From positions 21,447 through 85,446 of the forward strand of contig JAHFTX010000008.1 of the NCBI GenBank assembly GCA_023265395.1: DNA of 64,000 bases, given 5' to 3'. Each line of letters starts with the position of its first letter. Within the stretch, counting starts at the first letter, position 1. A model generated the notes under the pieces. The model made no database searches, was not told the DNA's origin, and saw only the letters and a list, made by a program, of their open reading frames with translations. Below, one piece after another: positions 21,301 through 59,848 of this stretch. The DNA comes from Thermoplasmata archaeon (GTDB taxonomy: Archaea > Thermoplasmatota > DTKX01 > JAHFTX01). The position numbers and the translations under genes were made by a program.

Positions 21301-21337
21301 GGAGCGCCCGGCGACGCGCTAGTCAGCCACGGCCCAG

Positions 21338-21349
21338 AAAGGTTATAGG
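21338..21349 (+). promoter_or_regulatory. BRE/TATA-like element GAAAGGTTATAG
   Basis: About 40 nt upstream of ATG 21386; followed by aaaggagg. Confidence 0.55.
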
Positions 21350-21385
21350 GCGCCCAGCGGCATCGAAAGGAGGCTGGGTGCTCTG

Positions 21386-24300
21386 ATGCTACCTGGTCGA
21401 TGGACGAGCCTGCTGCCCCTGCTGGTCGTGGCACTGCTGGTCCTCCCCCTCCTGTCGGCGGCCGTCGCAACCGAGGCATCGGATCCTTCGTCGACCCATG
21501 GTCGGCAGCAGACCATTCCCAGCTGTCTCTCGACGCCAGTGGTAGATGGCTTCTACAATAGCAGCGCGGAGTGGGTCGGCTCTCTCAACCTCGACATCGG
21601 CGTCAGCGGCAGGGCCGCCGAGCTGTACGTTTGTGCCGATGGGATGTCGCTCTACTTCCTGGCAGACCTCATCCAGGAGACGACCCCTGACCCGACCTCG
21701 GGCCCGCTGGCCGCCGACGGCGCGACCGAGTACTTCACGATCATCATCGACGGCGACAACGATGGCGAGGTCACCTACGCGCAGAACCAACAGGGGTTCA
21801 AGCCCCCCGACCAAGGAGGTCAGAACGTCGACCATGGCGTCCTCGTGGGCAAGAACCTCACCACCCGCTGGGTCGGGCAGCTCTACACCGGTCAGGGCCT
21901 GACCTTTGCCACGCAGTGGAGCTACGCCGACATCTTCGCGTACAACTACAACGGCAGCGCCAACTTCGGCACCTCGCACCTGATCGCCGAGGTCTCGATC
22001 CCCTACGATGGCCCCGGTGATGTCCTGGGTGGTTCGATCTGGAAGGGTTTCGTCAAGGGCCTCTACATCGTCGGATTCGACAGCGCCCTGCCGGCAGGGG
22101 ACCAGATGTATGCCTCCTGGCCCCAGCCCCCCCCGGCGGGTCTGGCCGGTGGCTTCGACCCGATGACGTTGCCCCAGGAGCTCCCCCACATCCGGATCAC
22201 CGACCCGGCGGTTGCTGATGGCCCCTTCGAGGTCGGGACGGCGGTGGTCGTCACGACCGAGGCGACCGATGACTCGGTTGGCACCCTCACCTATCAGTGG
22301 GACCTCGATGGCACGCCCATCGCTGGTGCGACGGCGGCCACCTACCCGTTCGATCCGACCGCCGCCGGATTCTACGATCTGCAGGTGACGGTCACCGACA
22401 CCCAGAGCAATGCTGAGTCGGCCGACATGGTGATGGAATGGATCCCCCAAGAGACGGGACCGTCGACGGTCAGCACCGAGCCACCCGCTGGCGCTGTGGA
22501 GGGCGTCGAGGGCGCGGACCTTCCGCTGTCGTTGACCTACCAGGATCTCAATCTGGGCCAATCGGATGAGGCGGTGGCGGTCTCCTGGACCCTCAACGGT
22601 GCTGCCGTCACTCCCTCGAAGGTCTCGGGTTTCCAGGTCGATCCGACGACCCGGCGGACCACCTACACATTCTCGACCGACTACGAGATGGCGGGCACCT
22701 ACGCGGTCTCAGTCTTGGTCACCGACAGCTACCTCGATGCCGGGCTCACGACCTCGGCGACCTGGTCGGTGACGGTCGCCAACACCAACCGACCGCCCAA
22801 GATCGAGACGGCGACCCCAGCGGGCAACGCGATCGCCCTCAAGGAACTCGAGTCGGTGCAGTTCGAGATCTCGGCGACAGACCCCGACTCGGACACCCTC
22901 GAATACGCGTGGACCTTCGATGATCTCCCGCAGCCCCTCTCAGCGGGGGCGCTCAGCTTCACCTATCTGAGCGACCTCTCCTCTGCCGGTCCCCACACGG
23001 TGCGAGCGGAGGTCTCCGATGGCACCGATGAGGTCAACCGCACTTGGAGCGTGACGGTCGACAACCTCAACCAGGCCCCGCGGATCGTCTCCCTCTCCCC
23101 CGAGGGGGCCGTGGTACTCGACGAAGGCTCCAGTCAGACCTTCTCCGTCGTCGCCGCGGATGCCGACGAGGACTCGTTGACCTACCTCTGGCGGCTCAAC
23201 GAGCTCGACATCGAGAGTGCCACCACTCCAACCTTCGTGTTCACAACGGCCTTCACTGGTCCGATGAGCGCAGGGGGCTACACCCTCGAGGTCATCGTCA
23301 AGGATGGCCACGTCAGCACCCCGACGAGCTGGGAGATCGAGGTCCGCAACGTCGATCGACCGCCGGTGGTCGTCTGGGCCTCGCCCCAAGAGGGCAGCAC
23401 CTTCCCGCTCGGAAGCCGCGTCAACTTCATCGCCGGCGAGAGCAAGGATCCCGACGGGCACGCGCTGACGTACGCATGGGACTTTGGGGACGGGTCCAAG
23501 GCCGTCGAGGCGGTGCTCACCCATGAGTACCGCCAGCCGGACACCTATCAAGTGACCCTGACCGTCTCCGATGGTGGGACGCCCATCGTGCTCAGCCGCA
23601 CCATCACGATCGAGGCAGCGGTGGTCTCGGTGACCTTCATCAAGGCCGAGCCAACGACTGCCAAGGAGGGTAGCTCGATTCACCTCGAGGTGACCGTGCG
23701 CAACAGCGGAAACCTGGCGGTCGACGGCGTGGCGGTGACGCTGGTGATCGGGAGCTCTGTGTCTGCCCAGCTCTTTGCGAACCTCACCCCCCAGGCCGAC
23801 CAGGTGCTGACCTTCGAATGGAAGGCGCGACCAGGTACCCACAAGGTCTCCGCCTCGATCGCCCCAAAGGACGGGCTCCAGATCGATACCAGTGGCACCC
23901 CACCGAGTGTCACGCTCACGATCGAGGCCCTCCACCGGACCGACGATTCGGGACAACCTTCGTTGTTGACATCGCCAGTGGTCTTGGGGGGGATCGTCGG
24001 GTTGCTGGTCGTGCTCATCGTGGTCGCGCTTATCGCCGCCAGGCGCGTCAAGGCGAAGCGCTACTCCGAGGGATTGATGGCCTCAGTACCAGCCCCTGCC
24101 GCGCCGATGACCTACCAGACCGACTACCAGGCGAGGGCGCTCTCCCAGGAGACCTTCGCCCGAGCTCTCCAGACGACCCAGACGCCAGCGGAGCGCTCCA
24201 CGGCCTCGAGCAAGGCGCGCGTCTGCCCCCATTGCAAGGCCGAGGTGTTCGAGGAGAGTGCCGACTGCCCCTTCTGCTACAAGCCGATGGTGGTGGCGCC

Positions 24301-24955
24301 CCCGCCGCCAAAGCCCGTCATCGCTCCGCCTGCAGCCGTCCCCTCCGTACCTGTCACACCCAAGGGGCCGACCTGCCCCGCGTGCCACGAGCCGGTCGAG
24401 GCAGGCTGGAAGCTCTGCCCCTTCTGTGACCACGCACTCGGCGAGCCGTCTGCGCCAAGCAGCGCCGGTGCAGCAGGGACGAAGTCTGCCAGCACTCGGC
24501 CCACCTCAGCCAAGACCCACTGTCCCGCCTGCAACGAGGAGGTCGAACGGGATTGGAAGATCTGCCCCTTCTGTGACAACGAGCTCAAGGGCAGCTCACC
24601 GACTCCCCCTAGGTCGACCAGGCCCAGCGGCACCGCCGTCAGTGGGCCATCCCCTACCAAAGGATCCGCAAGCGCGGCTCCGTCACGACCTTCGCCGACC
24701 AATGCTGCCAGCCCGTCGCCCAGGGGGGCTGCTCCCATCCCAGCGGTGGCCCCCCCCGCGGCGAGCCTCGCAGGCGCATTCACCAGCCGGCTGGCGACAT
24801 TGCAGGCCGCTCTCGAGCGCGCGGAGGCGGGGGGGAAGCCCCGCAAGGACGTGCGCAACTTCCTGACCCTGGCGCAGCGCAATCACGGCTCCGGGAAGCT
24901 CGACAAGGCGACCGAATACCTCGATAAGGCGCAGAAGGCCCTCGAGCCCTCCTGA
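21386..24955 (+). CDS. Surface protein: CBM9/DOMON-like N-terminus, PKD/Ig repeats, CARDB, TM, three cytosolic zinc ribbons, helical tail
   Basis: ALTYAWDFGDGSKAVEAVLTHEYRQPDTYQVTLTVSDGG (PKD); TM LLTSPVVLGGIVGLLVVLIVVALIAA; CPHCKAE..CPFC, CPACHEP..CPFC, CPACNEE..CPFC. Confidence 0.88.
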   Translation: MLPGRWTSLLPLLVVALLVLPLLSAAVATEASDPSSTHGRQQTIPSCLSTPVVDGFYNSSAEWVGSLNLDIGVSGRAAELYVCADGMSLYFLADLIQETTPDPTSGPLAADGATEYFTIIIDGDNDGEVTYAQNQQGFKPPDQGGQNVDHGVLVGKNLTTRWVGQLYTGQGLTFATQWSYADIFAYNYNGSANFGTSHLIAEVSIPYDGPGDVLGGSIWKGFVKGLYIVGFDSALPAGDQMYASWPQPPPAGLAGGFDPMTLPQELPHIRITDPAVADGPFEVGTAVVVTTEATDDSVGTLTYQWDLDGTPIAGATAATYPFDPTAAGFYDLQVTVTDTQSNAESADMVMEWIPQETGPSTVSTEPPAGAVEGVEGADLPLSLTYQDLNLGQSDEAVAVSWTLNGAAVTPSKVSGFQVDPTTRRTTYTFSTDYEMAGTYAVSVLVTDSYLDAGLTTSATWSVTVANTNRPPKIETATPAGNAIALKELESVQFEISATDPDSDTLEYAWTFDDLPQPLSAGALSFTYLSDLSSAGPHTVRAEVSDGTDEVNRTWSVTVDNLNQAPRIVSLSPEGAVVLDEGSSQTFSVVAADADEDSLTYLWRLNELDIESATTPTFVFTTAFTGPMSAGGYTLEVIVKDGHVSTPTSWEIEVRNVDRPPVVVWASPQEGSTFPLGSRVNFIAGESKDPDGHALTYAWDFGDGSKAVEAVLTHEYRQPDTYQVTLTVSDGGTPIVLSRTITIEAAVVSVTFIKAEPTTAKEGSSIHLEVTVRNSGNLAVDGVAVTLVIGSSVSAQLFANLTPQADQVLTFEWKARPGTHKVSASIAPKDGLQIDTSGTPPSVTLTIEALHRTDDSGQPSLLTSPVVLGGIVGLLVVLIVVALIAARRVKAKRYSEGLMASVPAPAAPMTYQTDYQARALSQETFARALQTTQTPAERSTASSKARVCPHCKAEVFEESADCPFCYKPMVVAPPPPKPVIAPPAAVPSVPVTPKGPTCPACHEPVEAGWKLCPFCDHALGEPSAPSSAGAAGTKSASTRPTSAKTHCPACNEEVERDWKICPFCDNELKGSSPTPPRSTRPSGTAVSGPSPTKGSASAAPSRPSPTNAASPSPRGAAPIPAVAPPAASLAGAFTSRLATLQAALERAEAGGKPRKDVRNFLTLAQRNHGSGKLDKATEYLDKAQKALEPS

Positions 24956-30203: not shown

Positions 30204-30752
30204 ATGAGCCGCGGGCCGCGCACGTTCCACTTGCTGTTCCTGGGCGACAAGGACGTCGGGATCACCAGCCTGATCGAACACACCCCCATCGACTACGCTG
30301 GCGAAGGAGATTGGGGCTTGGGGATCGAATTCTACCAACAGAATGTCCGCCTGCAGGAGGGGCCCGCCCGCCTGGTCATGTTCGAGCTCGGCCGCGAGGA
30401 TTCCTTTGCCACCGTCGCTCGCAACTTCAAGCGAGACTGCGGCGTCATCCTCGTCTATGACGTCACCCGCCCGACGACCTTGGCCAACGTCCTCGACACC
30501 TTCTCCCGCCTCAAGCCCCACCTGCCGGAGGTCATCCCCCGGATCCTCGTCGCCAACAAGGCGGACCTCGAGGATTCTCGGGAGGTCGACACCCCAGCGG
30601 GGTTCGCCGCAGCATCGGCAATCGACGCCGAGTACCTCGAGACCTCGGTCGTGGACAAGGATCGGGAGAACATCCAATTGGTCTTGACCGACATCGCTGA
30701 GGCCATCGCCCACGTCGACTTCGACGAGGGCGACTCTCAAGACCTCGAGTAA
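30204..30752 (+). CDS. Ras/Rab-like small GTPase homologue with degenerate P-loop and switch II
   Basis: LLFLGDKDVGITSLIEH; FELGREDSF; DCGVILVYDVTRPTTLANV; ILVANKADLED; EYLETSV. Confidence 0.82.
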   Translation: MSRGPRTFHLLFLGDKDVGITSLIEHTPIDYAGEGDWGLGIEFYQQNVRLQEGPARLVMFELGREDSFATVARNFKRDCGVILVYDVTRPTTLANVLDTFSRLKPHLPEVIPRILVANKADLEDSREVDTPAGFAAASAIDAEYLETSVVDKDRENIQLVLTDIAEAIAHVDFDEGDSQDLE

Positions 30753-30819: not shown

Positions 30820-33800
30820 CTACTTGTGGCGAGCCGTCTGGCTGACGATCGCGGCCATCGGAGGGTCGAGCGCGGACTGCGCGATGGCGGGGTCGGCCTC
30901 TGCCGCAGCTGCTCCAAGCAGTTGGGTCAGCGATAGCGCGCTCGCTGCGCCCGTGGTCAAGGAGACACCCCCGACAACTGGCGCCACGGTGGTCACGAGC
31001 ACGAAGCCGCCGGCGAGGCTCCCATGGTTGGAGAGACCGACCTGTCGCCCGCCGGTAGGTCCAAGCTCGCGGCTGGACGTGGGTTTGCTGCGCGAATCAT
31101 GGGGGTTGGTCGGCCAGGGATCGGCGCGATACTCATCGATGTTGCTCCATTGGTCGGCGTCAGGGTCCCCGGCAGAGCCGTTGTCGCCGATCGGCTCCCG
31201 GTCGTTGAGGTTGTAGACCTTCTCGTACCAGAAGGGGATCAAATCCTGGTCTCCATCGGTCAGGAACAGCAGGAAGTAGGCATCCGGGATCGGGATGGGC
31301 AGCACCAGCGGGCGCCCGTTCCCGTCGAAGAGGTTCTTCGAGATGATGGGGCTGAGGTACTGCGAGGGGTCGGTGGTCAGCTCGTTGATACCATCGGCGT
31401 CGACATCCGTGCCCGCGACGTATTCCTGGAGGTTGGGGAAGCTCTCGTTCTCCCAGATGGGGTCGATGAACCCGTCCCCATTGAAGTCCTTGCGGGTGAT
31501 GATCCAGTTCTCGCCCTCGTCGTACTGGAGGTTGCCGTTCGCATCGTTGAACTTGCTCGAATAGTTCATGCCGTCCTGGTCGGGATCGTCATACCAGTCG
31601 GTGGGAACCAATGGGTCGATGGTGTACTTGTTCGTCCCATTGATCGGCCGCCCATATGCGACCTCGAAACCGTCTGGCATCCCATCCCTATCACTGTCGG
31701 GGTCGAGCGGGTCGGTCTGCCCAAAGGGACGCCGGAACTCCTCGACGTCCTCCAACCCGTCCTGGTCGATGTCGCCATCGAGGGAGGAGGGGATGATCGG
31801 GTTGAGGGCATTGGTGCCCTTGGCGACGACGCGAAGGGGGCGTTCGGGCAGTCCCGAGGGAATCACCCCGGGGATCTTGTCCCGGTCATCATTGGCGGTA
31901 TCGCCGTCCGTGTCATTGCCGTTGTACGTGAACCCAGTCCGAGGGTCCTCCCAGGCCATCACGGGGATGGTGCGGTAGACGTTCTGCCCCATAACCCGTT
32001 GCAGCTCCACGCTGCTTTCGGCGTCGACCCAGGTGCGTTCCCACTCCTGGAGGTTGGTCCAGTTGTCGCCATAGGTGAATCCCGCGGCTGGGCCATCGGA
32101 ATTGTCTCCCGGGTCGCAGGCTTGCAGGTACGTGCTGCCGGCGGTAGGCTCGAAGTAGAGGCGTTCCCACCAGTCGGCGATGCCATCGGGCTCTGAGTCG
32201 AAGGCGTCGTCGCTGAATGCCCACTCATGGTTCCACCAATCGTCCCCCTTGCCATTGCTGGGGTCGGTGTTGTAGATCCACTCGTCGATGTTATGGAAGC
32301 CGTCGTTGTCCTTGTCCCCCTTGCCGTCGGAGTTGAGGATGGGGTTGAGGTCATAGATCCGCTCCCACCAGTCGGGCATCCCGTCGCGATCGGTGTCCGA
32401 ATAGACCGGCTGCCGGAGCAGCAGTGGGCGGCCCGAGGGGTCGAGATAGGTGTCGGAACCGTCAAGGATGTCGTCCGCATCGGTGTCGGGATTGAATGGC
32501 TCCGTGCGGTGCTGGTACTCTGCGATGTTGTTGAACCCGTCGAGGTCGAAGTCCTCCTCGCTGTCGAGCACGTCGTCATCGTTGGGGTCGGAGGCATCGG
32601 AGTTGATGCGGGTCGGGTCGAGCTTGAACAGCCCGTAGGCGAGCTCCCAGAAGGTCGGCAGGCCGTCCTTGTCGAGGTCCGAGTGGTCGAACTCGAAGCC
32701 GTCGGTCATGCCGTCATAGTCACTGTCTTGCAGCTTGGGGTCGGAGCTGTTGACGATCCCGACGGTGCTATAGACCACTTCGAAGCGGAGGACAGACCCG
32801 TCGATGTCTTTGATGGGACGGATCTTGGGGTTCCCAACGTCCTGCCCGTCGATTGGGTCGAAGTCCGTCAGCACCTCCAGGCCGTCCGAGAGCCCATCGC
32901 TATCGCTATCGGCCCGCAGGGCGTAGGGCCTGACCGTCGCACGCTGGTTGTTGACGGGCGTCCAGATATCGATTCCCAAGACCTCTTGGAGGTCGGAGAG
33001 ACCGTCGCCGTCGCTATCGGACTGAGTCGGGTCGAGGTACTGCCATCCGGCGTCGGGGTCGGCATCGATAGTGTACAACTCGTCGAAGTCGGAGATCCCA
33101 TCACCATCGGTGTCAGGGGCCGAGGCGTTGAGGGTGTAGCCGCGGAGGCGGCCGCGGACCTCGTTGTAGTCGTTGAGGTCATGCTCCTCGTTGGGGTTGG
33201 AGCTCCCGTCATTGTCATCGTCGATGTCCTGGCCGTTCTTGGGTCCATCGAGGATGTACTCCTCGTCGGCGCCGAAGTAGTTGTCCCCATCCTCATCGTC
33301 AGAAACGTCGTCGAGGTCGGTGTCAATCGCAGTGGCGCAGGTGAAATACCGTTCTTCCTTGTCGTTGACCCACACTAGCCATCCCTTGATGATCTCCTCG
33401 TCGTCGTGGAGCCGATCCCCGTCGGTGTCGAGCTTGAATGGGTCGGTGTTGTTGTAGTACTCTTCCAAGTTGAGCAGCCCATCGGGATGGGAAGCCCCGG
33501 TCTCGTCGAGATCGTTGTCTTCTTGGGCGTCCGCTGCGCGAAGCGGATCGAGATGATAGGCCACCTCCCACCCATCTGGGATCTTGTCGCTGTCGGTGTC
33601 GGGGTCTTTTGGATGGGTCCCTGCGTCGAACTCGGCGATGTTCTGCAACTCATCGCCATCAGGGTCAGCGAAACGGTCGTTGGGGTCGAGTGGATTGAGG
33701 CCGTAGTAGATCTCCCAGCCGTCGAACATGTGGTCGCCATCGGTGTCCGGGTTGATCGGGTCCGTGCCGTAGATGCAGATCTCAGCGAAGTCGATTGCCA

Positions 33801-35064
33801 AGCGCCCCCCCCGCTCGAGCCCCAAGCCGGTCGGCTTCTCCTGGTAACTGTCGCGGTCGGTGTCGGGGTCGCCCGGGTCAGTGCCAAGGTGGTATTCGTC
33901 GATGTTGAATCCGGTGATCCCTTGCGCGTCTCCGGTACAGTTCTCAGAGACCCCATAGTTGGCAGCGTCCTGGTCAGGATCGAGGTAGCGGTCCCCCGGA
34001 TAGGTCGGGTCGATCGGCACGATCCACTCCCAGAACGGGACCCCCCGGTCGTTGGTCGAGTTGACATGGCCGAGTCCGTAGAATGCCTCCCAGCCATCGG
34101 TCATGCCGTCTGCATCGGTGTCCGCGTTGACGGGCGAGGTCTCGTTGAGTGGGTTGAGCAGGTCCTCGAGGTCGACATCGAACCGAGCCTGGTACTCCAT
34201 GATGTTGGTGAACTGCTCACCGCCCCGAATGACCAGCTTGGGATCGGGGTCATTGGCGTTGAAGCAGGGTGCCAGTGGCCGCTGGAAGCAAAAGATTCCC
34301 TGGATGTCCACTAGGTCATTGGTCCCGACGCCGCCGAGGCTGGGGCCATGCAGCTCCACGGGGCGGTTGCCGCGGGATTGGACCTCCACGGAGAGGTTCT
34401 GCAGTTGTTGGGCGTCCAGGTCTGCGATTGAGAACCGGATGATGTTATCGACCTCCCCGCCGAGCCCCAGCCGGTAGGAACCATTGTCGTCGACGACAGC
34501 GTGCTCGATTCGCACCGAAGAGCCGCTGAATTCGAGCTTGTTGCTGAGCAGGTTCTCGACCGTCTTGATCTCGTAGTCGCTGTTGGGTGCGACCTTGAGG
34601 TCCGAGAGGAAGACGTTGTCGAAGAAGGAATCAATACGGCCGTTGTGGTTGAAGTCGTAGCCGTCCCCGTCGGGGTCCTCATAGGCGTCGGTCGGGTCGT
34701 TGGGGTCGACGTTGAACTGGTTGGTGAATAGGTCACGCACACCGTACTTGACCTCCCAGGCGTCGCCGATCCCATCCCCGTCGGTATCGGGGTTGCTCTC
34801 GTTGGTACCGTACCGATAGTTCTCGGCGAGGTTGGAGAGGCCATCGCCATCGGTATCAACCTCGGGGAGCGCGACGTCCTTCTGCGCGACTGAGAACTTG
34901 ATGTCCGGACTCTTGTCGACGGCGGTCGAACCCTGGTTCGAGAAGGCAATCGCCCCAGCGACGAGCAGCAGCGCCACGATGAGCACGACGACGCTGATGA
35001 TCACATCGTACCGCTTGATGCGGTCCATCTGCTTCCATTGGTCCCAAAAGCCCATGTCCAGCAC
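30820..35064 (-). CDS. Membrane-anchored giant protein with about 30 TSP3/EF-hand-like Ca-binding repeats
   Basis: N-terminal TM DVIISVVVLIVALLLVAGAIAF; repeated DTDGDGxxDGWEVxYGLDP and NIxEYxxGTDP units. Confidence 0.9.
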   Translation of the reverse strand: MLDMGFWDQWKQMDRIKRYDVIISVVVLIVALLLVAGAIAFSNQGSTAVDKSPDIKFSVAQKDVALPEVDTDGDGLSNLAENYRYGTNESNPDTDGDGIGDAWEVKYGVRDLFTNQFNVDPNDPTDAYEDPDGDGYDFNHNGRIDSFFDNVFLSDLKVAPNSDYEIKTVENLLSNKLEFSGSSVRIEHAVVDDNGSYRLGLGGEVDNIIRFSIADLDAQQLQNLSVEVQSRGNRPVELHGPSLGGVGTNDLVDIQGIFCFQRPLAPCFNANDPDPKLVIRGGEQFTNIMEYQARFDVDLEDLLNPLNETSPVNADTDADGMTDGWEAFYGLGHVNSTNDRGVPFWEWIVPIDPTYPGDRYLDPDQDAANYGVSENCTGDAQGITGFNIDEYHLGTDPGDPDTDRDSYQEKPTGLGLERGGRLAIDFAEICIYGTDPINPDTDGDHMFDGWEIYYGLNPLDPNDRFADPDGDELQNIAEFDAGTHPKDPDTDSDKIPDGWEVAYHLDPLRAADAQEDNDLDETGASHPDGLLNLEEYYNNTDPFKLDTDGDRLHDDEEIIKGWLVWVNDKEERYFTCATAIDTDLDDVSDDEDGDNYFGADEEYILDGPKNGQDIDDDNDGSSNPNEEHDLNDYNEVRGRLRGYTLNASAPDTDGDGISDFDELYTIDADPDAGWQYLDPTQSDSDGDGLSDLQEVLGIDIWTPVNNQRATVRPYALRADSDSDGLSDGLEVLTDFDPIDGQDVGNPKIRPIKDIDGSVLRFEVVYSTVGIVNSSDPKLQDSDYDGMTDGFEFDHSDLDKDGLPTFWELAYGLFKLDPTRINSDASDPNDDDVLDSEEDFDLDGFNNIAEYQHRTEPFNPDTDADDILDGSDTYLDPSGRPLLLRQPVYSDTDRDGMPDWWERIYDLNPILNSDGKGDKDNDGFHNIDEWIYNTDPSNGKGDDWWNHEWAFSDDAFDSEPDGIADWWERLYFEPTAGSTYLQACDPGDNSDGPAAGFTYGDNWTNLQEWERTWVDAESSVELQRVMGQNVYRTIPVMAWEDPRTGFTYNGNDTDGDTANDDRDKIPGVIPSGLPERPLRVVAKGTNALNPIIPSSLDGDIDQDGLEDVEEFRRPFGQTDPLDPDSDRDGMPDGFEVAYGRPINGTNKYTIDPLVPTDWYDDPDQDGMNYSSKFNDANGNLQYDEGENWIITRKDFNGDGFIDPIWENESFPNLQEYVAGTDVDADGINELTTDPSQYLSPIISKNLFDGNGRPLVLPIPIPDAYFLLFLTDGDQDLIPFWYEKVYNLNDREPIGDNGSAGDPDADQWSNIDEYRADPWPTNPHDSRSKPTSSRELGPTGGRQVGLSNHGSLAGGFVLVTTVAPVVGGVSLTTGAASALSLTQLLGAAAAEADPAIAQSALDPPMAAIVSQTARHK
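31100..34870 (-). repeat. Degenerate coding tandem repeats (TSP3 type)
   Basis: Recurrent D-x-D-x-D-G-(x)2-D-x2-E units, counted by eye. Confidence 0.85.
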
Positions 35065-35094
35065 ACTCCTTCCCGTTGCGGTAGGTCCGATAGC

Positions 35095-39006: not shown

Positions 39007-42000
39007 ATGGTCCGCAGCATCGCTCCTTGGCCATCCTATGGGAACGGGCGTGCCTGGTACGCCCACACCGGGTCGGCCACCCTGGTGGTCCTGCTGGTCT
39101 TTGCCGCCTTCCCGCTGGGTTCGATTGGCACGATTCCGTTGCAATACAACCTCGGAACCGGACTGGCGGGGATGCCCCAGGGCTTCGTTGCTGAGCAGGA
39201 CAACCAGAACCTGGGGTTCTCGACCGGCTCGGGGACTCCGCTCAGTATCGTCGGTGACCTCAATGGGGATGGATACGAGGACCTCGCGATCGGCTCTCCT
39301 ACGTTCGACCAGGGTCTCAACAACCGTGGACGGGTGTATCTGTTCTTCGGACCAGGAAAGCAGTGGAATGCCAGCACTACGGTAGGAAGTGCTGATGTGA
39401 TCCTCACTGGTGAAGCTGCCGAAGATCAGCTGGGGATGGCACTCAGTGGTGTCGGTGATGTCAATGATGACGGGATCGACGACATGGCTATCGGCGCGCC
39501 ACGAAGCGACCGCGGTGCTGGCGATTCTGGTTGCGTCTACCTTCTTTTCGGTCACACCGGTCCATGGTCCGGAGGCGACATCTCCACCCTCCCCGGGGTC
39601 ATGGTGCTGCTGGGGAACACCGGCTCCGAGTTCGCAGGTTCGGCAATCGCTGGCGGCGGTGACATCGATGACGACGGGATCGCCGACCTCGTGGTAGGCG
39701 CGCCCAATTGGATGGGTCTAGCTGCAAACGCTGGTGCGGCTTACCTCATCCGCGGTCGTCCGACCTGGCCAACTTCCCCGGTGTTCCTGGGCAATAGCGG
39801 CACGCGTATCTACGCCGACTCACAGGGATTGGCCGGCACACAGGTCTCCCTCGATGGAGACCTCGATGGCGACGGGTTCGATGACCTGGTCATCGGAGCG
39901 CCACAGTTCATGAGTCCTGCTCCGCAGGCGGGCCGAGTCTACCTCATCCGAGGAGGTGCAGGTCCCTGGCCCAGCTCGATCCCGGTGGAGACCGCTGCCA
40001 ATGGGATCATCACCGGGCTCCGCTCGCAACACCATATCGGTGTCTCGCTGGACATCATCGGAGACGCCAATGGCGATGGCCGCGATGACCTTCTCCTAGG
40101 CTCACCGGACAACAACCTCGCCAACAGTTCGCTGCCCGAGTGCTATCTGCACCAGGGGAGCGCCAACTTCTTCGGCGCGATGACAGACGTCAGCGCTGCG
40201 ACGAGCGTCCTGACCACGACCATCGGCGGGGGGCGGTTGTGCAGAAGCATCGTGGGCGTAGGCGACATCGATGATGACGGCATGGCAGACATCGCCATCG
40301 GGGCACCCTACGCCTTCGATCAAGGGCTGGGCACGACGTATCTGCTCCAAGGTCGGGCGAGCTGGCCCCCCAGCGCCGATATCAGCAGTCTTGCAGGGGC
40401 GACCTATTTGGCGGAAGGCAACCCCGCCGCGGGGGGATTCACGCTAGGTGCAGGGGGGGATATCGATGATGATGGATTGCCCGACCTGCTAGTGAGCCAG
40501 CCCGACCTCTCAGCGAGCGGACCAAACCGGGGGAAGGTGAGTCTCATCCACCCGACCCATGAGCCGGGCCCTACGACGATCTTGAGCTTGACGGTCTACG
40601 GCGACGCAGCTCATGCAGTGCCCATCAGCGTCGCGAGCCCAGGCCAGCGACTGTACCTGAGGATCGAGGGGACAGGGGGGGACCTCCAGGCACGTGACCT
40701 CACCAAGCTGCATCTGCAGGTCGATGACGGATCAGGGCCGGTGGTCCCGCTGGTTCTTCGGGAGACTGACGTCCAGAGTCATCTGTTCGACGGCGAGGTC
40801 ACGCTCGGCGCCAAGACCAACCCTGATGCAGCAATCCTCGGTGCGGCGCTCGGTGATGACATCCTGCTGACATCGGCGGCCAACCCTGCGATCACGGCGC
40901 TCCTCCCCGTGGTTCCCCTTGAGGTCCATCTGGACCCTTCTGATGGGAACCTGACCGAGGATGACGTGGTGACCTTCACGGCCAGCGTGGTCAATGGGAC
41001 CGCCAGCAGCCTGACTCTTGCCACCACTGCCCCGTTCCTGGACGTGGATGCCGACCTCCACACTGCCACAGGTACTCCCAACAATGGCGACATCGGGACT
41101 TACACGCTGACCGCCACCGCCATCGACCGCTGGAGCGGCCTACAGGTCGATCGGACCCTAGGCTTGACAGTCGTGAACACCCCCCCGACGATCTTGACCA
41201 TCGATGTGCCCCTGGCTCTCGTCGGCAGCGAGTACCGGGTGCCCTACCGGAGTGACGACGACGGGCAGGGATTCACGAGTTGGGCGCTGCTCGAAGCACC
41301 TGCCTGGTTGGACATCGAGGCGGCGACGACCGAGCTCTTCGGGACTCCACAACCCAGCGATGTTGGGACGGATGCAGTCTCTCTGCGCGTCGACGACGGC
41401 AATGGGGGGAGGACGTTCGCCAATTTCAGCATCGAGGTCCGTGCGTTGCAAGAAGCCCCCTTGATTACGAGCACGAACCTCCCCGATGCCTTCGAGGATA
41501 GCCTGTATCAGGCCAACTTGACAGCGGCGAGCCCCCTGGGTCTGCCGCTGACCTGGTCCCTTCAGACCAACGCGACCTGGCTGACCCTCGACCCGCAGAG
41601 CGGTCGGCTCAGCGGGACGCCTCGGAACGAGCAGGTGGGTCAGACGATGTTGCAGCTGCGAGTCTCAGACCCCCAGGACCGCAACGACTCGCGCACGATT
41701 GTCCTCGAGGTGCAGAACACCAATGACCCCCCGCTCTTCTTGACCGACCCCCCAGGCGTCGTCACTGTCGGGGAGACGTTCCACTACTCACCCGGGACCC
41801 AGGATCCTGATGTGGGTGACGATGTGGCGGTGATCCTCCGAGTCGGTCCTACGGGGATGGCCTTGCAGGGGGACCCGCCGATCCTGCAGTGGGTGCCCAC
41901 TGTCGGCGATGGTGGGATCACGACGGTCGAGCTCGTCGCCAGCGATGGCGATTCCCAGACGGTCCTTGCCTTCTCGCTACTGGTCAATCTTGCTCCACGT

Positions 42001-44313
42001 ATCGACATCGCACCTCCTGCGACCGTCCGTGCCGGGGACCTCTACCTTTTCGACATCCCCGTCACCGATGATGGTCACGCCGCCCCGGTGTCCTTCTCGC
42101 TTTCCTCAGCCCCTGCGGGGATGACGGTGGGCCTCTCCGATGGCCAGTTGCGATGGTCCCCCACCGCGACGGACGTCGGGAATCTGAGCGTCACGCTGGT
42201 CATCGCCGATGGGATTGTCGCTGTGCCGTTCCCTTTCACGATCACCGTGCTGCCCACGGATGCCCCTGCGCCCCCCCAGATCGAGCTCGTCGCCCCGGGC
42301 GAGGGCGCGGCGGTGCACACCACCGTCCCGCTCTTGCGATGGCGCATCACCGATGGCGGCGAGGGGCCAGTTCGATGCACCGTACTCCTCTCGGTCGACC
42401 GGGCATCGGTCGGCACACGAGACCCCGCTGCCCGGATCGGCGCGACACCAACGGGTGTCGAGCAGCTGCAGCTGACCGATTCACTTGTGCCCGGTACGAC
42501 CTACTTCTGGAGCGTCCTGGCCGAGGATAGTCTGTGGCAGGTGGCGTCGCAACCTCCCCGCAGTTTCACCATCTCAGCCGTTGCGACGGAGGACTGGCCT
42601 CCGCTTCCGCAGGGCCCGGAGCGCTGGGTCACCGTGGCGGGGAGCAATGGCACCGTCCAACTCAACGGCACGGACCCGGAGCATGTCCGGATCGGCTTCC
42701 TGCTCGAGGAAGGGCCGAGTGGGCTATCGATTAGCCCCGAGGGTCTCGTCCACTGGCGCACCAGCCGTGCCGACATCGGCACCCACACGGTCCGCTACCT
42801 CGTTGACGACGGTGTCAGTCAGAGCGAGGGCCTGCTCATCATCGAAGTGCGGGGAGTCCCGATCCATGATGCCGGGCTACCCCTCGGGGTGCTCGCCCTG
42901 ATCGCGGCCCTGGGGCTGGTCGCCACGGGTGTGGGCCTCCTCGTGTGGCGGCAGCGGCAGGGTCGGGCACCCGTCCCGCCAACCATCCTCAGTCCACCAC
43001 CGCCGGCCATCGGTGTCGAGCCATTCCATGTCGCTTCAGTGCTCCTGCTGCATCAGGATGGTCGATTGCTCCAGCACCTGCTCCCCTCTGGCGCCGAGTC
43101 GCTGGGTCAGGGCAACGCCACGGAGGCCGATATCGTCGGGGCGATGCTCGTGGCCATCCAAGGTTTCGTGCAGCAGTCCTTTGCCACGGACCGCGGATTG
43201 GACCGTTTTGGCTTTGACCGTTTCACGGTGGTTCTGCGATCCCAAGGTCCGCTTCTGGGGGCGGTGGTGGTCGAAGGCACCCCACCGGCCCAGCTGGAGG
43301 ACTTGCTCGAGCGAATCGTCGTCAGCCTCCACGCGGAATATGGCGCACTGCTGGAGGTGTGGGACGGCGACCCTGCAGCCATGGTCGCGATGGGGCCGTC
43401 ACTGACCCAGCTGTTGGAACTCGAGCAGCACCTCGAGGTGCGCACCGACTTGGCACCGATCAAGGTACGCTCGGCGATGGAGTACTTCCAGGGTTACCTG
43501 CGACTCAAGGTCTCAGTCGCGAACAATGGTGCGACGCCGGCGTCCTCGGTTCGGCTGACCCTTCGGTATGACCACTCCTACCTGCGCCTTGCTCGTATCG
43601 AACCTGAGTTGGCGCGCCAAGAGGACACCGTTACCTTGGGGGAGGTCCCAAGCGGGGAGCGGCGGGCGGTCGCCTTCCTGCTCGACCCTCTGATCTGCCA
43701 AGAGAGCGTGCTGCGAGCCGATCTCAGCTATACCGATGGCGCGGGGGCACCTCAGACGATGCAGATGAAGGAACGACACGTCGATGTGGTCTGCCCAGTG
43801 TTCTACACACCGCAGACGGTCAACGTCGCGATCCTCCGCCGACTCTTGGCAAGATCGACTGTGCACGACCTGCGTCGCTATCGCCCGGCCACGGGCGGCA
43901 CCCTCCACGAGCTGTATCTGAAGGTCAAGGACGTCATCGCGGGCTATGACATTCGGCTGGTCCGTGAGCTCGAGGGGTCGGACACGCAGAGTGTCGGGGA
44001 TACGGAGAGCGCCACCCCCGGGACCAGTGCCGTGGCGTGGTTCTACGGGAAGGTCCCCGCGACCAGCGAGGAGCTGGTCGTCGCAGTCATTGCCAATTCT
44101 GACGCCCAGGCCGTCGATGTCACGGTCACCTGTTCGAACCTTGCCTCGCTGACCGGATTGCTTGCAGACATCGCCCACCAGGTCGGTCGTGTCATCCCCG
44201 GGGTCCTCACCGACGAAGGAGAGGACGAACAGCAGGTGCTCGAGCGCGCCCTGCGGTTGCTGCAGCTGCTCGACCCAGAAGAGGGTCCGGATCAGGGCCG
44301 TAGCAGCAAGTAG
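39007..44313 (+). CDS. Integrin-like FG-GAP membrane protein with putative Ig/cadherin-like repeats, one TM and a large cytosolic region
   Basis: GDLNGDGYEDLAIGSPTFDQGLNNRGRVYLFFG and similar FG-GAP units; TM LPLGVLALIAALGLVATGVGLLVW; about 460-aa cytosolic tail. Confidence 0.87.
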   Translation: MVRSIAPWPSYGNGRAWYAHTGSATLVVLLVFAAFPLGSIGTIPLQYNLGTGLAGMPQGFVAEQDNQNLGFSTGSGTPLSIVGDLNGDGYEDLAIGSPTFDQGLNNRGRVYLFFGPGKQWNASTTVGSADVILTGEAAEDQLGMALSGVGDVNDDGIDDMAIGAPRSDRGAGDSGCVYLLFGHTGPWSGGDISTLPGVMVLLGNTGSEFAGSAIAGGGDIDDDGIADLVVGAPNWMGLAANAGAAYLIRGRPTWPTSPVFLGNSGTRIYADSQGLAGTQVSLDGDLDGDGFDDLVIGAPQFMSPAPQAGRVYLIRGGAGPWPSSIPVETAANGIITGLRSQHHIGVSLDIIGDANGDGRDDLLLGSPDNNLANSSLPECYLHQGSANFFGAMTDVSAATSVLTTTIGGGRLCRSIVGVGDIDDDGMADIAIGAPYAFDQGLGTTYLLQGRASWPPSADISSLAGATYLAEGNPAAGGFTLGAGGDIDDDGLPDLLVSQPDLSASGPNRGKVSLIHPTHEPGPTTILSLTVYGDAAHAVPISVASPGQRLYLRIEGTGGDLQARDLTKLHLQVDDGSGPVVPLVLRETDVQSHLFDGEVTLGAKTNPDAAILGAALGDDILLTSAANPAITALLPVVPLEVHLDPSDGNLTEDDVVTFTASVVNGTASSLTLATTAPFLDVDADLHTATGTPNNGDIGTYTLTATAIDRWSGLQVDRTLGLTVVNTPPTILTIDVPLALVGSEYRVPYRSDDDGQGFTSWALLEAPAWLDIEAATTELFGTPQPSDVGTDAVSLRVDDGNGGRTFANFSIEVRALQEAPLITSTNLPDAFEDSLYQANLTAASPLGLPLTWSLQTNATWLTLDPQSGRLSGTPRNEQVGQTMLQLRVSDPQDRNDSRTIVLEVQNTNDPPLFLTDPPGVVTVGETFHYSPGTQDPDVGDDVAVILRVGPTGMALQGDPPILQWVPTVGDGGITTVELVASDGDSQTVLAFSLLVNLAPRIDIAPPATVRAGDLYLFDIPVTDDGHAAPVSFSLSSAPAGMTVGLSDGQLRWSPTATDVGNLSVTLVIADGIVAVPFPFTITVLPTDAPAPPQIELVAPGEGAAVHTTVPLLRWRITDGGEGPVRCTVLLSVDRASVGTRDPAARIGATPTGVEQLQLTDSLVPGTTYFWSVLAEDSLWQVASQPPRSFTISAVATEDWPPLPQGPERWVTVAGSNGTVQLNGTDPEHVRIGFLLEEGPSGLSISPEGLVHWRTSRADIGTHTVRYLVDDGVSQSEGLLIIEVRGVPIHDAGLPLGVLALIAALGLVATGVGLLVWRQRQGRAPVPPTILSPPPPAIGVEPFHVASVLLLHQDGRLLQHLLPSGAESLGQGNATEADIVGAMLVAIQGFVQQSFATDRGLDRFGFDRFTVVLRSQGPLLGAVVVEGTPPAQLEDLLERIVVSLHAEYGALLEVWDGDPAAMVAMGPSLTQLLELEQHLEVRTDLAPIKVRSAMEYFQGYLRLKVSVANNGATPASSVRLTLRYDHSYLRLARIEPELARQEDTVTLGEVPSGERRAVAFLLDPLICQESVLRADLSYTDGAGAPQTMQMKERHVDVVCPVFYTPQTVNVAILRRLLARSTVHDLRRYRPATGGTLHELYLKVKDVIAGYDIRLVRELEGSDTQSVGDTESATPGTSAVAWFYGKVPATSEELVVAVIANSDAQAVDVTVTCSNLASLTGLLADIAHQVGRVIPGVLTDEGEDEQQVLERALRLLQLLDPEEGPDQGRSSK

Positions 44314-55576: not shown

Positions 55577-58500
55577 CTACTGCTGGGGAGGTCGCGGTGG
55601 TCCCTGCGGCTGACCCGGCGGTGGCCCACCTGGGCCAGCCGCGCCCGCACCGGGTGGTGGTCCCCGCGGACCTGCTCCCGACGGCGGCGCCCCGGAGGCC
55701 CCAGGACCGCCCGGTGGCGGGCCTTGGCCCGCGACGGTGATGATCACGTCGCGGTCCTCAGCCTCCAGCTGTTGCGACTTGACGTACATCGACGCCTTCT
55801 GCTCCTCCGAGAGCATGATGCGCTCGAGCGAGAACTGGACCCGCCGCAAGGCGGCGATGGCCTTCTCCCGCTCCTCGGCGCCGATCTCGTGGCTGCTGTA
55901 GCGAGCCTCCTCGAGGACCTCGATGAAGTCGTCGAGGGCCTCCTTGTCGATCGGCAGCGCATCGCGGATCGCCTTCTCGAAGTCGCGGAATGTCTCGCTT
56001 TCCCGACGCATCTGACCGTATTGCTTGAGGTTCTTGGCCAGCCGCCGGTACGCCTTGAAGATCGACCCGGCGAATTCGTTGCCGGCGACCAACTGGTCTG
56101 CGGCCTTCTTGATGATCGCTGCCATGCCGCGCAGCTGGCGCTTCTGCCAGTGCTTGTACGCGAAGAAGCCGATTACGACCGACCCGGCGATGATCGCTGC
56201 AAGCAGCAGGAAGGGCCAGGCTCGAGTCAGGGTCGGCGTCGGCGGAATCCGGAATGTGAGGTTGGCAGACGCCTCGCTACCCCCGATCTTTTCGACATCC
56301 TCGACGAGGAAGGGGTCGTCGTCGGGAGTGACCATCTCCCCTGCGTAGATAGCGACGATCTTTCGATCGATCAGTTGTTCGTCGTCCTTGGTGATGCCAG
56401 AGAGGAAGGTGATGTTGAAGGTCAGCTCCCCGTTCTGATCGGTTGCCGCCTCGATGATCTTCTGATCGAGGTTCGAGCGTCCGGTCCTCTCGTCCTGCCC
56501 TGCGTCGATGAAGTACAGGTAGAGGGTGGCGTTCTCGATCGGGTCTTGCGTGTCGGCGTAGACCAGTCGGGCGGTCCCCGAGAGCGTGTCACCTTGGTTG
56601 ACGGTGCCGTTGGGTTCGAGGTTATCCAGTTCCAGCCGGCTACCCGCGCCGATGTAGATGTAGGTCGAGTTCTCCGTGCGCGAGAAGCGTCCATCGGTCG
56701 TCCCGTTGTAGGAGAGGGTGACCGTCTGTTTGTCCACCGGAATAGTGTCGGGGACGACCGACTCGAAGATGAAATTGCCCCCTGAGACGTCGGTCTCCTG
56801 GCTGTCGAGCAAGTGCCCGCCGATGGAGAGGATGACGCGTTCCTGGCCGATGGGGTTGTGGGGCACATCGTCGATGAATTCATAGAGCACGCCCTCGATC
56901 GTCACCGGCTGGCCGCGGATCACCGATTGAGTGTCATCAAGTCGGACGATGGTCGTATTGACCTTGATCGTGTAGTTGGTCGTGTTGGAGCTCGTAAGGT
57001 ACTCCGGCGTCCCCTTGAAGGACGCCTTGACGGCCACCTGCCCGACCAGGTCTTCGATCTTGATCGGATGAGGCACGCGGAAGTAGCCGGCAGAATCGGT
57101 GTCCGAGCGACCCCAGTTGGCAGCAGTCGCTCCGCCGACCTTGATCTCCTCGACGATGATGGGAAGGCTGGGAATCCGGTCTCCAGCATCGTCGATGATC
57201 GTCCCTTCCACCAAGAGCTTGTTCCCAGCGCCCTTGAACACCTCGAAGTTCTGCGAGCTGGTGAAGGCGATCTCGGTGGTGCTGACGACGGAGTAGTTGA
57301 TCGTGAATTCGCACGGTTCGTACTTGGGGAGCGCCCCCTCGAAGACCATCCGCACAGGCACCTGGCCCAGCTGGGCGAAGCTCAGGAGCTCGTAGTCTCG
57401 GGAGAAGGTCCCCTCGTCGTCGGTGGTGGTGGTCGGCAGCGCCTCGTTGTTCCACCAGAGCTTGACGTCCTGGAAAGGCACCGGGTCGCCGGCGCTCTGG
57501 AGGACACTCTGGTTAGTGAGCACGAGCAGCTTCGTCGTTATGGTCACCACGTCGCCACGGAACACCTGCAACGCCGATGCTGGTGGGGTCTTGAACTTGG
57601 TCTGAGCGGTGACGTCGTAGATGTCGGTGCCTGAGGCGGCCGCATAGAAGGGCGTCCCGGCATACTCGAAGCGAACGTCGATTAGCCCGAGCTCCTGCTC
57701 GGCCTTGAGGACCTTGTACTGGTCGCCCGAGCCCTGCGGTCCGAGCCAGCCCCAACGGCTCTGGTTGGAGCCATCGAGGTAGATCTCCTTGGGCGGTGTG
57801 CTCACCTTGTCATCGGGGTCGTTGGGGTTCGTGGGCGTCCGGTCCCAGTAGACGGTGACGAAGTAATGTTGGTCCTCGTCCTCGATGATGGCCTTGGGAA
57901 TCTCACCGCGGTTGTCCACTAGGCGTGCCTTGGGCTGGACATAGCTGTCGCGGTGGGCGACCTTCGAGGAGTTGCTGGTCGGGAACTCGAAGTGGGTCGT
58001 GCGAGCCACGGGGAGGTCGAGGATGGTGGTGCTCTCAAGGTACTTCTGCGTCTTGGGGTGCTTGGCGATGAACTGGTGCATCGCCGGCAGCGCGTCCTCG
58101 GGGACGAGCCATTCGAACTGGAACTCTCCGGAGGCTTCGGTGTGGACCGAAAAACCATTGGAGATGATGTGAAAGCGTGCCCGCACCTTCTCTGCTCCCG
58201 CGAAGCCGAACCACTCGCCCTTGTAGCTGAAGGAATCGAGGTCGACGGAGTAGGAGGTCCAGGTGGTGACATCGTCGTCGATCTCGGCTGAGACGGGCGC
58301 CCAGCTGGAGCCGTCGTTGTCCGAGGCCTCGACGATGACGTGGTCAAGATCGTCGAGTTCCAACCAGTGGTAGAAGGAGAGGGTCGCCGACCCGACGCCG
58401 GAGAGGTTGATTGGCGGCGAGATCAGGTAGCTGTCCGTCTGGACCTGATAGGAGCCGTCGAGGTTGGTCGCCGCGACCCGCACAGGGCTGTTGGCGTTGC

Positions 58501-59743
58501 CCGGGCCATTGAGTGGGATGCCGATCTCCCAATCGTCGCGGTTCCCGCCGCTGCTCCAACCGCTGCCCGCGCCCGCCTCGAAGTTCTCCTTGAACTGGGG
58601 GACGTTGTCGCCGGTGATCGTGACGTCATCGATGTACCACCCTGCCGGGAGGTGCTCGCTGATGGTGGTGGTCGCCCCTTCACTTGTCTCGAAATCGATG
58701 AGCAATCCTTCGGCTGCGATGGGGGCGCTCGTGCTCTGGGTCTTGAGGCTCCCGCTGATGGTCACCGGTTCGCCAGCGATCGGGTTGGCGGGCTCGACCT
58801 GGAGGTCGACGATGGCTGGCTCCTGCCAATAGAACGGAATCTCGTCATGGATGGTGAAGGGCCACAGGATCACCCCGGTGGCCTGGTCGATGTATCCCTC
58901 GCCGTTCCAGTCGAAAGTGACCTTCCCCAGTCCCGCAGGGAAGCTGCCTGAGGGTGTGACATCGAATTCGAAGGTACCGTTGGTCTTGCCTTGGGTGCTG
59001 TTGTCGCCGAACACGAAGAATTCGACATCCTCGGACGAGGTGACGAGGATCACACCGTTGCTGTCGTAGACCTTGATGGTGACTGGCGGTACCTGAGGCG
59101 TCTGGCGCCCAATCCCATGGTTTGAGGCGAGTCCCCCATTCTCGAGCGAGGTGATGTTCTCGATGTGGCCATCGACGACCTGCCCGGTGATGTGGACGGC
59201 CTCGTTGTTCTTGAGGCCGCTGGTGGAGTTTGGGTCTGCCGCCGGGAAGTGGGAGAGCGCCGTGGTGCGGTCCCCAAGGGCGATCGTGATGTGCGCCTCA
59301 TCGGAGATGACCACCAGCCGCCCCAGCGGGTCTGCCGCCGCGGGTGCACCCAAACGCTCGCTGGCGAGAATCTCGCCTGGCTGGACGTGGTGGATGGTCT
59401 GGGGCTCTGCGTGCCATGTGCCATCAATGCGTTGACCGCCTTTCCCCAGGATCGTGGACCGGTCCACCAGCGCAGAAGCCGGTAGATCCCCCGTCTTGTC
59501 CTCCGAAGTTCCAGCGGAGATTGTCGTCGCCATCGACCCATCTGCGGGGTCGGCCTCGTGGGTCATCGCCACGTCGGCCTGGACCGGCTGCGCCTGGTTC
59601 ATGTCGACCGACTGGAGAGGACCAGCGATGCCTGGTGAAGAGAAGGAGACCTCCGGCGCCATCGTGGCGGGGGCCGCCGCGACGGTCAGGACCGGGAGGA
59701 GCAACAGGAGCGAGATGATCGAGATGGCCTTGAGGTTCTGCAT
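55577..59743 (-). CDS. Large surface protein: Ig-like and jelly-roll domains, TM, DUF4129-like cytosolic domain, Pro/Gly-rich tail
   Basis: Signal peptide SIISLLLLLPVLTVAAAP; WYIDDV; TM AWPFLLLAAIIAGSVVIGFFAY; EALDDFIEVLEEARYSSHEIGAEEREKAIAALRRV; GPPPGGPG repeats. Confidence 0.88.
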   Translation of the reverse strand: MQNLKAISIISLLLLLPVLTVAAAPATMAPEVSFSSPGIAGPLQSVDMNQAQPVQADVAMTHEADPADGSMATTISAGTSEDKTGDLPASALVDRSTILGKGGQRIDGTWHAEPQTIHHVQPGEILASERLGAPAAADPLGRLVVISDEAHITIALGDRTTALSHFPAADPNSTSGLKNNEAVHITGQVVDGHIENITSLENGGLASNHGIGRQTPQVPPVTIKVYDSNGVILVTSSEDVEFFVFGDNSTQGKTNGTFEFDVTPSGSFPAGLGKVTFDWNGEGYIDQATGVILWPFTIHDEIPFYWQEPAIVDLQVEPANPIAGEPVTISGSLKTQSTSAPIAAEGLLIDFETSEGATTTISEHLPAGWYIDDVTITGDNVPQFKENFEAGAGSGWSSGGNRDDWEIGIPLNGPGNANSPVRVAATNLDGSYQVQTDSYLISPPINLSGVGSATLSFYHWLELDDLDHVIVEASDNDGSSWAPVSAEIDDDVTTWTSYSVDLDSFSYKGEWFGFAGAEKVRARFHIISNGFSVHTEASGEFQFEWLVPEDALPAMHQFIAKHPKTQKYLESTTILDLPVARTTHFEFPTSNSSKVAHRDSYVQPKARLVDNRGEIPKAIIEDEDQHYFVTVYWDRTPTNPNDPDDKVSTPPKEIYLDGSNQSRWGWLGPQGSGDQYKVLKAEQELGLIDVRFEYAGTPFYAAASGTDIYDVTAQTKFKTPPASALQVFRGDVVTITTKLLVLTNQSVLQSAGDPVPFQDVKLWWNNEALPTTTTDDEGTFSRDYELLSFAQLGQVPVRMVFEGALPKYEPCEFTINYSVVSTTEIAFTSSQNFEVFKGAGNKLLVEGTIIDDAGDRIPSLPIIVEEIKVGGATAANWGRSDTDSAGYFRVPHPIKIEDLVGQVAVKASFKGTPEYLTSSNTTNYTIKVNTTIVRLDDTQSVIRGQPVTIEGVLYEFIDDVPHNPIGQERVILSIGGHLLDSQETDVSGGNFIFESVVPDTIPVDKQTVTLSYNGTTDGRFSRTENSTYIYIGAGSRLELDNLEPNGTVNQGDTLSGTARLVYADTQDPIENATLYLYFIDAGQDERTGRSNLDQKIIEAATDQNGELTFNITFLSGITKDDEQLIDRKIVAIYAGEMVTPDDDPFLVEDVEKIGGSEASANLTFRIPPTPTLTRAWPFLLLAAIIAGSVVIGFFAYKHWQKRQLRGMAAIIKKAADQLVAGNEFAGSIFKAYRRLAKNLKQYGQMRRESETFRDFEKAIRDALPIDKEALDDFIEVLEEARYSSHEIGAEEREKAIAALRRVQFSLERIMLSEEQKASMYVKSQQLEAEDRDVIITVAGQGPPPGGPGASGAPPSGAGPRGPPPGAGAAGPGGPPPGQPQGPPRPPQQ

Positions 59744-59848
59744 GATTGACACCGCGGGGAGGTCCTCCCCCTTGCGATGAGGACATAAAGGCGACTGTGG
59801 GAGCCCGACCGGATTGATTTATCTCGTTTTCGGTGCCGGAGCTCTTGG

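Follow-up and report, generated by a model that had tools for sequence, protein, structure and literature searches.

A predicted longin- and appendage-type tail shared by surface receptors of a non-Asgard archaeon, and the Rab-like genes that accompany its longin module

The receptor gene and the predicted folds of its tail

Could an archaeal surface protein built on the outside like an integrin pass a signal to a small GTPase inside the cell? The question is raised by a gene at 39007..44313 (+) of the window, the stretch of 64,000 nucleotides from a Thermoplasmata archaeon that was analysed here. The open reading frame is exact, from the ATG at 39007 to the stop at 44313, and its translation gives a single-pass surface protein of 1768 aa. 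The upstream neighbour on the same strand, across a gap of ~85 bp, is an RlmE/FtsJ-like gene.

The gene-level observation at this locus is confirmed. A hydrophobic stretch at the N-terminus (aa ~23-41, 39073..39129, +), read from sequence alone, resembles a signal sequence. Behind it lie seven FG-GAP repeats with calcium-binding-type GDxDxDG loops (aa ~77-515, 39235..40551, +): Pfam PF01839 matches the protein in seven stretches (E 2e-46), and the loops stand at aa 83, 150, 218, 284, 352, 419 and 484, with a regular spacing of ~66 residues that far exceeds chance. The seven repeats are predicted to form a 7-bladed propeller of integrin type. Ig/cadherin-like repeats follow (aa ~628-1284, 40888..42858, +), detected by Pfam as He_PIG in five stretches (E 1e-27) and as Big_9 (E 1e-10). 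The single strong transmembrane (TM) helix, called from its hydropathy score, spans aa 1293-1314 (42883..42948, +) and is followed by RQRQGR and a tail of 454 residues. An earlier note had listed tandem FG-GAP units, Ig/cadherin-like repeats and one TM segment with about 460 residues behind it, and all three are borne out; the tail segments that it quoted are located at aa 1341, 1497 and 1594.

No Pfam or NCBIfam family exceeds its cut-off in the tail. On the whole receptor Pfam yields FG-GAP and Ig families only, the HEAT/ARM trunk of adaptins being absent, while an NCBIfam search with the tail gave nothing useful and PDB sequence searches with the tail or with its alignment (A1) gave nothing meaningful. 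The tail was modelled with AlphaFold2 (AF2) from shallow alignments, which admitted the window and relatives and left out the other paralogs of the genome. The model of the whole tail (13 rows) has a pLDDT of 75.6, with individual domains fair to good and an uncertain arrangement between domains (pTM 0.38); that of the first domain alone (2 rows) reaches a pTM of 0.69. From N- to C-terminus the secondary structure reads bb-a-bbb-a-a, nine strands and a-b-a-bbbb-a.

The first of these domains (43018..43428, +) is modelled as b1 b2 a1 b3 b4 b5 a2 a3, and its family shares the motifs DGR...MLxAIQxF...WDGD. When the domain is searched alone with Foldseek, the top PDB match is Mon1-Ccz1 in complex with Ypt7 (E 1.8e-4, TM-score 0.59), followed by zeta-COP, AP-sigma, TRAPP, Ykt6, BLOC-3 and Ragulator, and nearly all of the 50 matches listed are longin or roadblock proteins. 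Scores to known longins are modest (E 1e-4 to 1e-2, TM-score ~0.4-0.6). A profile of 24 longin modules (alignment A2) ranks MON1, BET5 and again MON1 first among 177,635 PDB sequences, with E-values (0.19-0.35) that are singly not significant. No curated Pfam longin model exceeds its cut-off; the best is Fuz_longin_1, the longin of FUZ, MON1 and HPS1, at E 0.015 and in two of 11 tail members.

The earlier note had left the choice between roadblock and longin undecided. The roadblock fold begins with a helix, and both AF2 models, of the whole tail and of the first domain alone, give the order bb-a-bbb-a-a without an N-terminal helix; because of this order the domain fits a longin rather than a roadblock in the models. 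Roadblock/LC7 was dropped on topology. Pfam PF03259 (Robl_LC7) matches three other loci of the genome, the receptor gene not among them, and among tail members it reaches E 0.098 in one. Hence the longin half of the noted pattern stands, on AF2 topology and Foldseek, and the roadblock half falls, with no N-terminal helix and no PF03259 match over cut-off.

In the remainder of the tail AF2 places an Ig-like beta sandwich of nine predicted strands (43450..43785, +) ahead of a TBP-like platform of a-b-a-b-b-b-b-a order (43804..44187, +), as expected from the beta-rich segment and alpha/beta end described before. The platform is further defined by alignments A1 and A3, in which W and G are invariant in its AW[FY]YGK strand and in its TGLLA helix. 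With the whole tail as query, the best 13 of 1,524 PDB matches in Foldseek are all appendages of COPI-gamma, AP2-alpha or AP2-beta (E 2e-9 to 9e-7), the first, a COPI-leaf chain, being identified as gamma-COP by where it ranks and how long it is. Below them come BBSome subunits, AP mu chains, gamma-ears and GGA ears. TM-scores over the whole appendage are near 0.3, since the arrangement between domains is uncertain. At the sequence level no Pfam adaptin or coatomer appendage family appeared at E<=10 among 11 tail members, and an appendage profile searched against PDB sequences found no adaptin. The note had called its appendage comparison speculative. Because COPI and AP2 appendages rank first for the whole tail, and longin or roadblock proteins first for its N-terminal piece, an appendage is now the best-supported reading of the modelled fold of the second half. 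By analogy, the unit may bind short peptide motifs. The AlphaFold and Foldseek check proposed in that note thus recovered a longin, a sandwich and a platform and did not refute the reading given there; the folds of the tail, like the tail family described below, are well supported.

One tail family behind exchangeable ectodomains

The genome, a draft assembly in 75 pieces, holds 25 matches to the tail sequence and 29 to a profile of its first, longin part. These amount to 29 longin modules and 13 appendage units; 12 proteins, the receptor included, carry both, and one further protein has the appendage half only. A strong TM segment lies just ahead of the tail in ten of the 12 full-tail proteins; of the other two, one has several TM segments and the other lacks any. 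Their ectodomains comprise FG-GAP with Ig, Kelch with laminin-G, PKD/CARDB, fn3, Big_13 and Ig. A further dozen proteins carry the longin module without the appendage unit, in contexts that include FG-GAP-TM, a NosD-type beta-helix with TM, polytopic membrane domains, TPRs, a zinc ribbon and an insertion in an AAA_16-TPR protein.

Tail identity to nine TM paralogs is 31-49%, and end-to-end likeness of ectodomains (~30-33% identity) is found only between FG-GAP paralogs. A tree of the second half of the tail places 11 of 12 tails of this genome in a supported clade (99/98) with mixed ectodomains, and on it the FG-GAP and Kelch labels each change at least twice on well-supported branches. The tree and the contrast in identity therefore indicate, at the level of sequence, that a constant tail is repeatedly combined with exchangeable ectodomains.

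Near the N-terminus of AAA_16-TPR (STAND-like) ATPases a longin is inserted at L039:1227-6834 and L043:207-3245. In one same-class genome (G002) a full-tail receptor gene (L084:3159-7390) is broken in its appendage part into two overlapping ORFs, and is either a pseudogene or an assembly error. Three long ORFs of the window, 21323-24952 (+), 30823-35094 (-) and 55580-59818 (-), encode 1210-1424 aa with hydrophobic N-terminal segments and are possibly further surface proteins; none of the three contains a longin or appendage unit.

A survey of 293 genomes of the same phylum found the longin module in 33 of them and a whole or partial appendage unit in 11. Both modules are present in each of the five same-class genomes (G000-G004), which have 7-29 longin copies. 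Long receptors, often single-copy, that combine an FG-GAP/PKD ectodomain and one TM with a longin tail lacking the appendage occur in other families. On the simplest history, TM-longin receptors would be older, and the class of G000-G004 would have acquired the appendage unit and expanded the family. A Robl_LC7 gene stands upstream of the single-copy TM-longin receptor gene, in divergent orientation, in five genomes that belong to three families (G167:C1:528292-528555, G176:C7:93808-94062, G212:C11:197946-198191, G241:C9:7063-7308 and G265:C13:118345-118608).

A single-protein search of genome contigs returned no relatives and an alignment search returned nine; viral contigs gave none. Relatives outside the phylum were drawn from named loci only. 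Among them, proteins of Methanoperedens open with an appendage unit without a longin, followed by a coiled coil, a TM and domains that, judged from their residues, are FGE-sulfatase-like. At these loci (L047-L054) the N-terminal appendage is accompanied by IKDSIIQRSN-type repeats, and a second, divergent copy often lies upstream.

Rab-like genes and what the tail may do

Single Rab-like proteins have been reported in Aciduliprofundum and in a Thermoplasmatales archaeon, and BLAST revealed no significant archaeal relatives of human Rab regulators (Surkont and Pereira-Leal, PMC4915359). In the present genome there are about ten Rab-like proteins, the majority of which keep their G motifs intact; searched as a profile, four of them match Rab1, Rab7 and the Thorarchaeota Rab of known structure (Thor-Rab) at E ~1e-37. 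The window itself encodes, at 30204-30752 (+) and ~8.3 kb upstream of the receptor gene, a Rab-like protein that is divergent (E 4e-11 against the Rab profile) and likely a pseudo-GTPase: its P-loop (GDKDVGIT) is degenerate and WDxxG is missing, but its NKAD motif is intact. Two complete genomes of the set (G035 and G067) have one Rab-like gene each.

Across the 293 genomes a Rab-like gene is present in 30 of 33 with a longin and in 9 of 260 without (Fisher p 1e-29), and by family in 15 of 16 longin families (p 8e-8), with p 2e-5 for roadblock tested in the same way as a comparison; the genomes are related and not independent, so these p-values are inflated. Copy numbers of the two genes are correlated (rho 0.84; partial 0.78 after genome size). 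Furthermore, 14 of 152 longin modules, in eight families, lie within 1 kb of a Rab-like gene, where 1.1 are expected under uniform placement. The ORF of an FG-GAP/PKD-TM-longin receptor ends ~10 bp from a convergent Rab-like ORF in G226 and G281 (loci including L097 and L100), in G079 (L102) two same-strand Rab-like genes come after a TM-longin receptor gene, and in G001 and G003 the gene of a tandem-longin membrane protein adjoins a Rab-like gene. Together these data give good support to a functional link of the longin module with Rab-like GTPases. In the Asgard strain MK-D1, operons generally do not combine genes of small GTPases with those of longin or roadblock proteins (Tran et al., PMC10933270).

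Other neighbours of Rab-like genes were observed as well. A protein of 890-1030 aa, with the longin placed much as in the AAA_16-TPR ATPases, is encoded beside a Rab-like gene at L098, L101, L104 and L105, and at two of these loci (L098:1737-2765 and L101:2843-3865) the Rab-like protein has ~170 extra residues ahead of its GTPase domain. Tandem-longin membrane proteins are found at L037:4444-6309, L055, L056 and L099:2199-4097; such a protein is a candidate for a built-in longin dimer.

In the receptor's own genome every longin gene is more than 5 kb away from any Rab-like gene, and the appendage unit is absent from all Rab-adjacent longin proteins examined, so that the link to GTPases is direct only for the longin module in other genomes. 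This absence of adjacency leaves some room for a structural adhesin or S-layer-associated stalk, whose longin-appendage tail would be a static scaffold that clusters or sorts surface proteins and regulates no GTPase. FG-GAP, PKD and Ig repeats typify adhesins, some longin-bearing proteins have no part in GTPase regulation (SNAREs, AP-sigma), and the fold matches include the longins of AP-sigma, zeta-COP and Ykt6. However, the top single fold match is a Rab GEF, and the co-occurrence, adjacency and copy-number correlation of longin and Rab-like genes across the phylum are strong; we consider a static scaffold unlikely, though it fares best among the alternatives.

Our preferred reading, with a probability of roughly two in three, is a modular family of surface receptors in which the longin domain couples outside binding to Rab-like GTPases and an appendage-type ear recruits partners. 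It builds on a domain order, predicted folds and a paralogous family that computation has established. Outside the cell, the calcium-dependent FG-GAP propeller and the Ig repeats would bind a ligand or a neighbouring surface, the binding part being Kelch/laminin-G, PKD/CARDB, fn3 or other Ig-type domains in the paralogs. The tail is probably cytosolic, because basic residues stand behind the TM in all paralogs listed and a GTPase partner would be inside. There, the longin would dock a Rab-like GTPase, most likely as a GEF-like or scaffold surface, acting by exchange or scaffolding rather than by inhibition. Since longin and roadblock regulators work as dimers (PMC10933270) and tandem longins are seen here, clustering of receptors may bring longin domains together, and the longin would then act as a dimer. 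Like AP2 and COPI ears, the appendage unit would gather partner proteins through short peptide motifs. When a ligand binds or receptors cluster, a Rab-like GTPase could thus be positioned and switched at a selected spot on the membrane, with adhesion, polarity or surface sorting as conceivable outcomes. Outside-in signalling, which the earlier note had suggested, is helped by the genomic link between longin and Rab-like genes, and we infer it in this form.

Archaeal ESCRT systems include adaptin appendages, and the available text of Makarova et al. 2024 (PMC10936438) describes IG+TBP appendages that may be TM-linked, as well as Asgard proteins with Vps28-C, appendage and longin, so that the tail might pick cargo for ESCRT membrane remodelling as part of such a sorting system. 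No Snf7/ESCRT-III protein exceeds the cut-off in this genome (PF03357 at 18.9 bits against 27.3), FtsZ is present in the same window and the paralogs scanned lack any ESCRT domain, all of which makes this improbable; ESCRT membership was dropped for lack of Snf7. Least probable of all is a convergent or too generic likeness, with profilin-like and Ig/alpha-beta domains in an archaea-specific role apart from GTPases and coats: neither unit is recognised by any curated sequence family and the sandwich-platform unit of Methanoperedens precedes coiled coils and FGE-sulfatase-like domains without a longin, but two separate eukaryotic-type folds stand in the tail in the order expected, their top matches are nearly exclusive, and the longin unit has the genetic link to Rab.

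Rab GTPases, longin regulators and coat appendages are usually seen as eukaryotic traits foreshadowed in Asgard archaea. In the present case a non-Asgard euryarchaeon has at least ten membrane receptors with differing outer parts and with two common inner modules otherwise known from eukaryotic vesicle trafficking. Outside Asgard, the longin family follows Rab-like genes in copy number and position and provides specific adjacent pairs; a prokaryotic longin-Rab partnership therefore becomes directly testable. The further claim, that these proteins form a new class of transmembrane receptor outside Asgard, with interchangeable adhesive ectodomains and a tail made of a longin-type Rab regulator and a coat-adaptor-type ear, in which outside binding directly sets a Rab-like GTPase, we put forward tentatively, at somewhat less than even odds. 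If true, it would offer a plausible prokaryotic case in which an integrin-type propeller signals outside-in to a small GTPase, and surface receptors would have been coupled to Rab switches and appendage modules either before the eukaryotic endomembrane system existed or separately from it.

Comparison with known systems

Integrin alpha chains likewise are single-pass surface proteins with seven FG-GAP repeats and calcium loops; they have a GFFKR-type membrane-proximal motif and a short tail. The receptor, in contrast, has RQRQGR behind the TM and no GFFKR, a 454-aa tail with folded domains and Ig repeats of bacterial type, and the earlier label "integrin-like" accordingly holds for the propeller and not beyond it. 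With the appendages of AP2 alpha and beta and of COPI gamma (PDB 2vj0, 1e42, 1r4x and 9qpq_H) the tail shares the Ig-type sandwich followed by an a-b-a-bbbb-a platform, whereas it lacks a HEAT trunk and a significant sequence match and is placed behind a receptor TM. The longin subunits of the Rab GEFs Mon1-Ccz1 and TRAPP have the same fold, give the best fold match and lead the sequence ranking, and the longin module is linked to Rab-like genes; here, however, the longin is fused to surface receptors, and its exchange activity is putative. MglA-MglB, a bacterial Ras-like GTPase with a roadblock regulator, similarly pairs a prokaryotic small GTPase with a regulator of the roadblock/longin class, but that regulator is a soluble roadblock homodimer, whereas the longin is receptor-bound and the GTPases are Rab-like rather than MglA-like.

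The closest archaeal counterparts come from ESCRT systems, as described in the available text of Makarova et al. 2024 (PMC10936438). In the methanogen protein Meth_adaptin a euryarchaeal appendage is joined through a TM to a GOLD domain. It shares the TM-attached appendage unit with the receptor and differs in having GOLD instead of propeller and Ig domains, in an ESCRT locus (none was found here), with no longin mentioned in that text. Asgard proteins that join Vps28-C, appendage and longin, for which activation of small GTPases has been proposed, combine a longin and an IG+TBP appendage in one archaeal protein, as the receptor does, and the same text mentions no integrin- or Kelch-type ectodomain or single-pass receptor layout for them (PMC10936438). 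The receptor, in turn, is non-Asgard and lacks Vps28-C, and it has interchangeable ectodomains and a linkage to Rab-like genes. Our searches of open-licence PMC papers found none on receptors that join an integrin- or Kelch-type ectodomain to a longin-appendage tail. Each part is known; what appears to be new is their combination in a repertoire of receptors.
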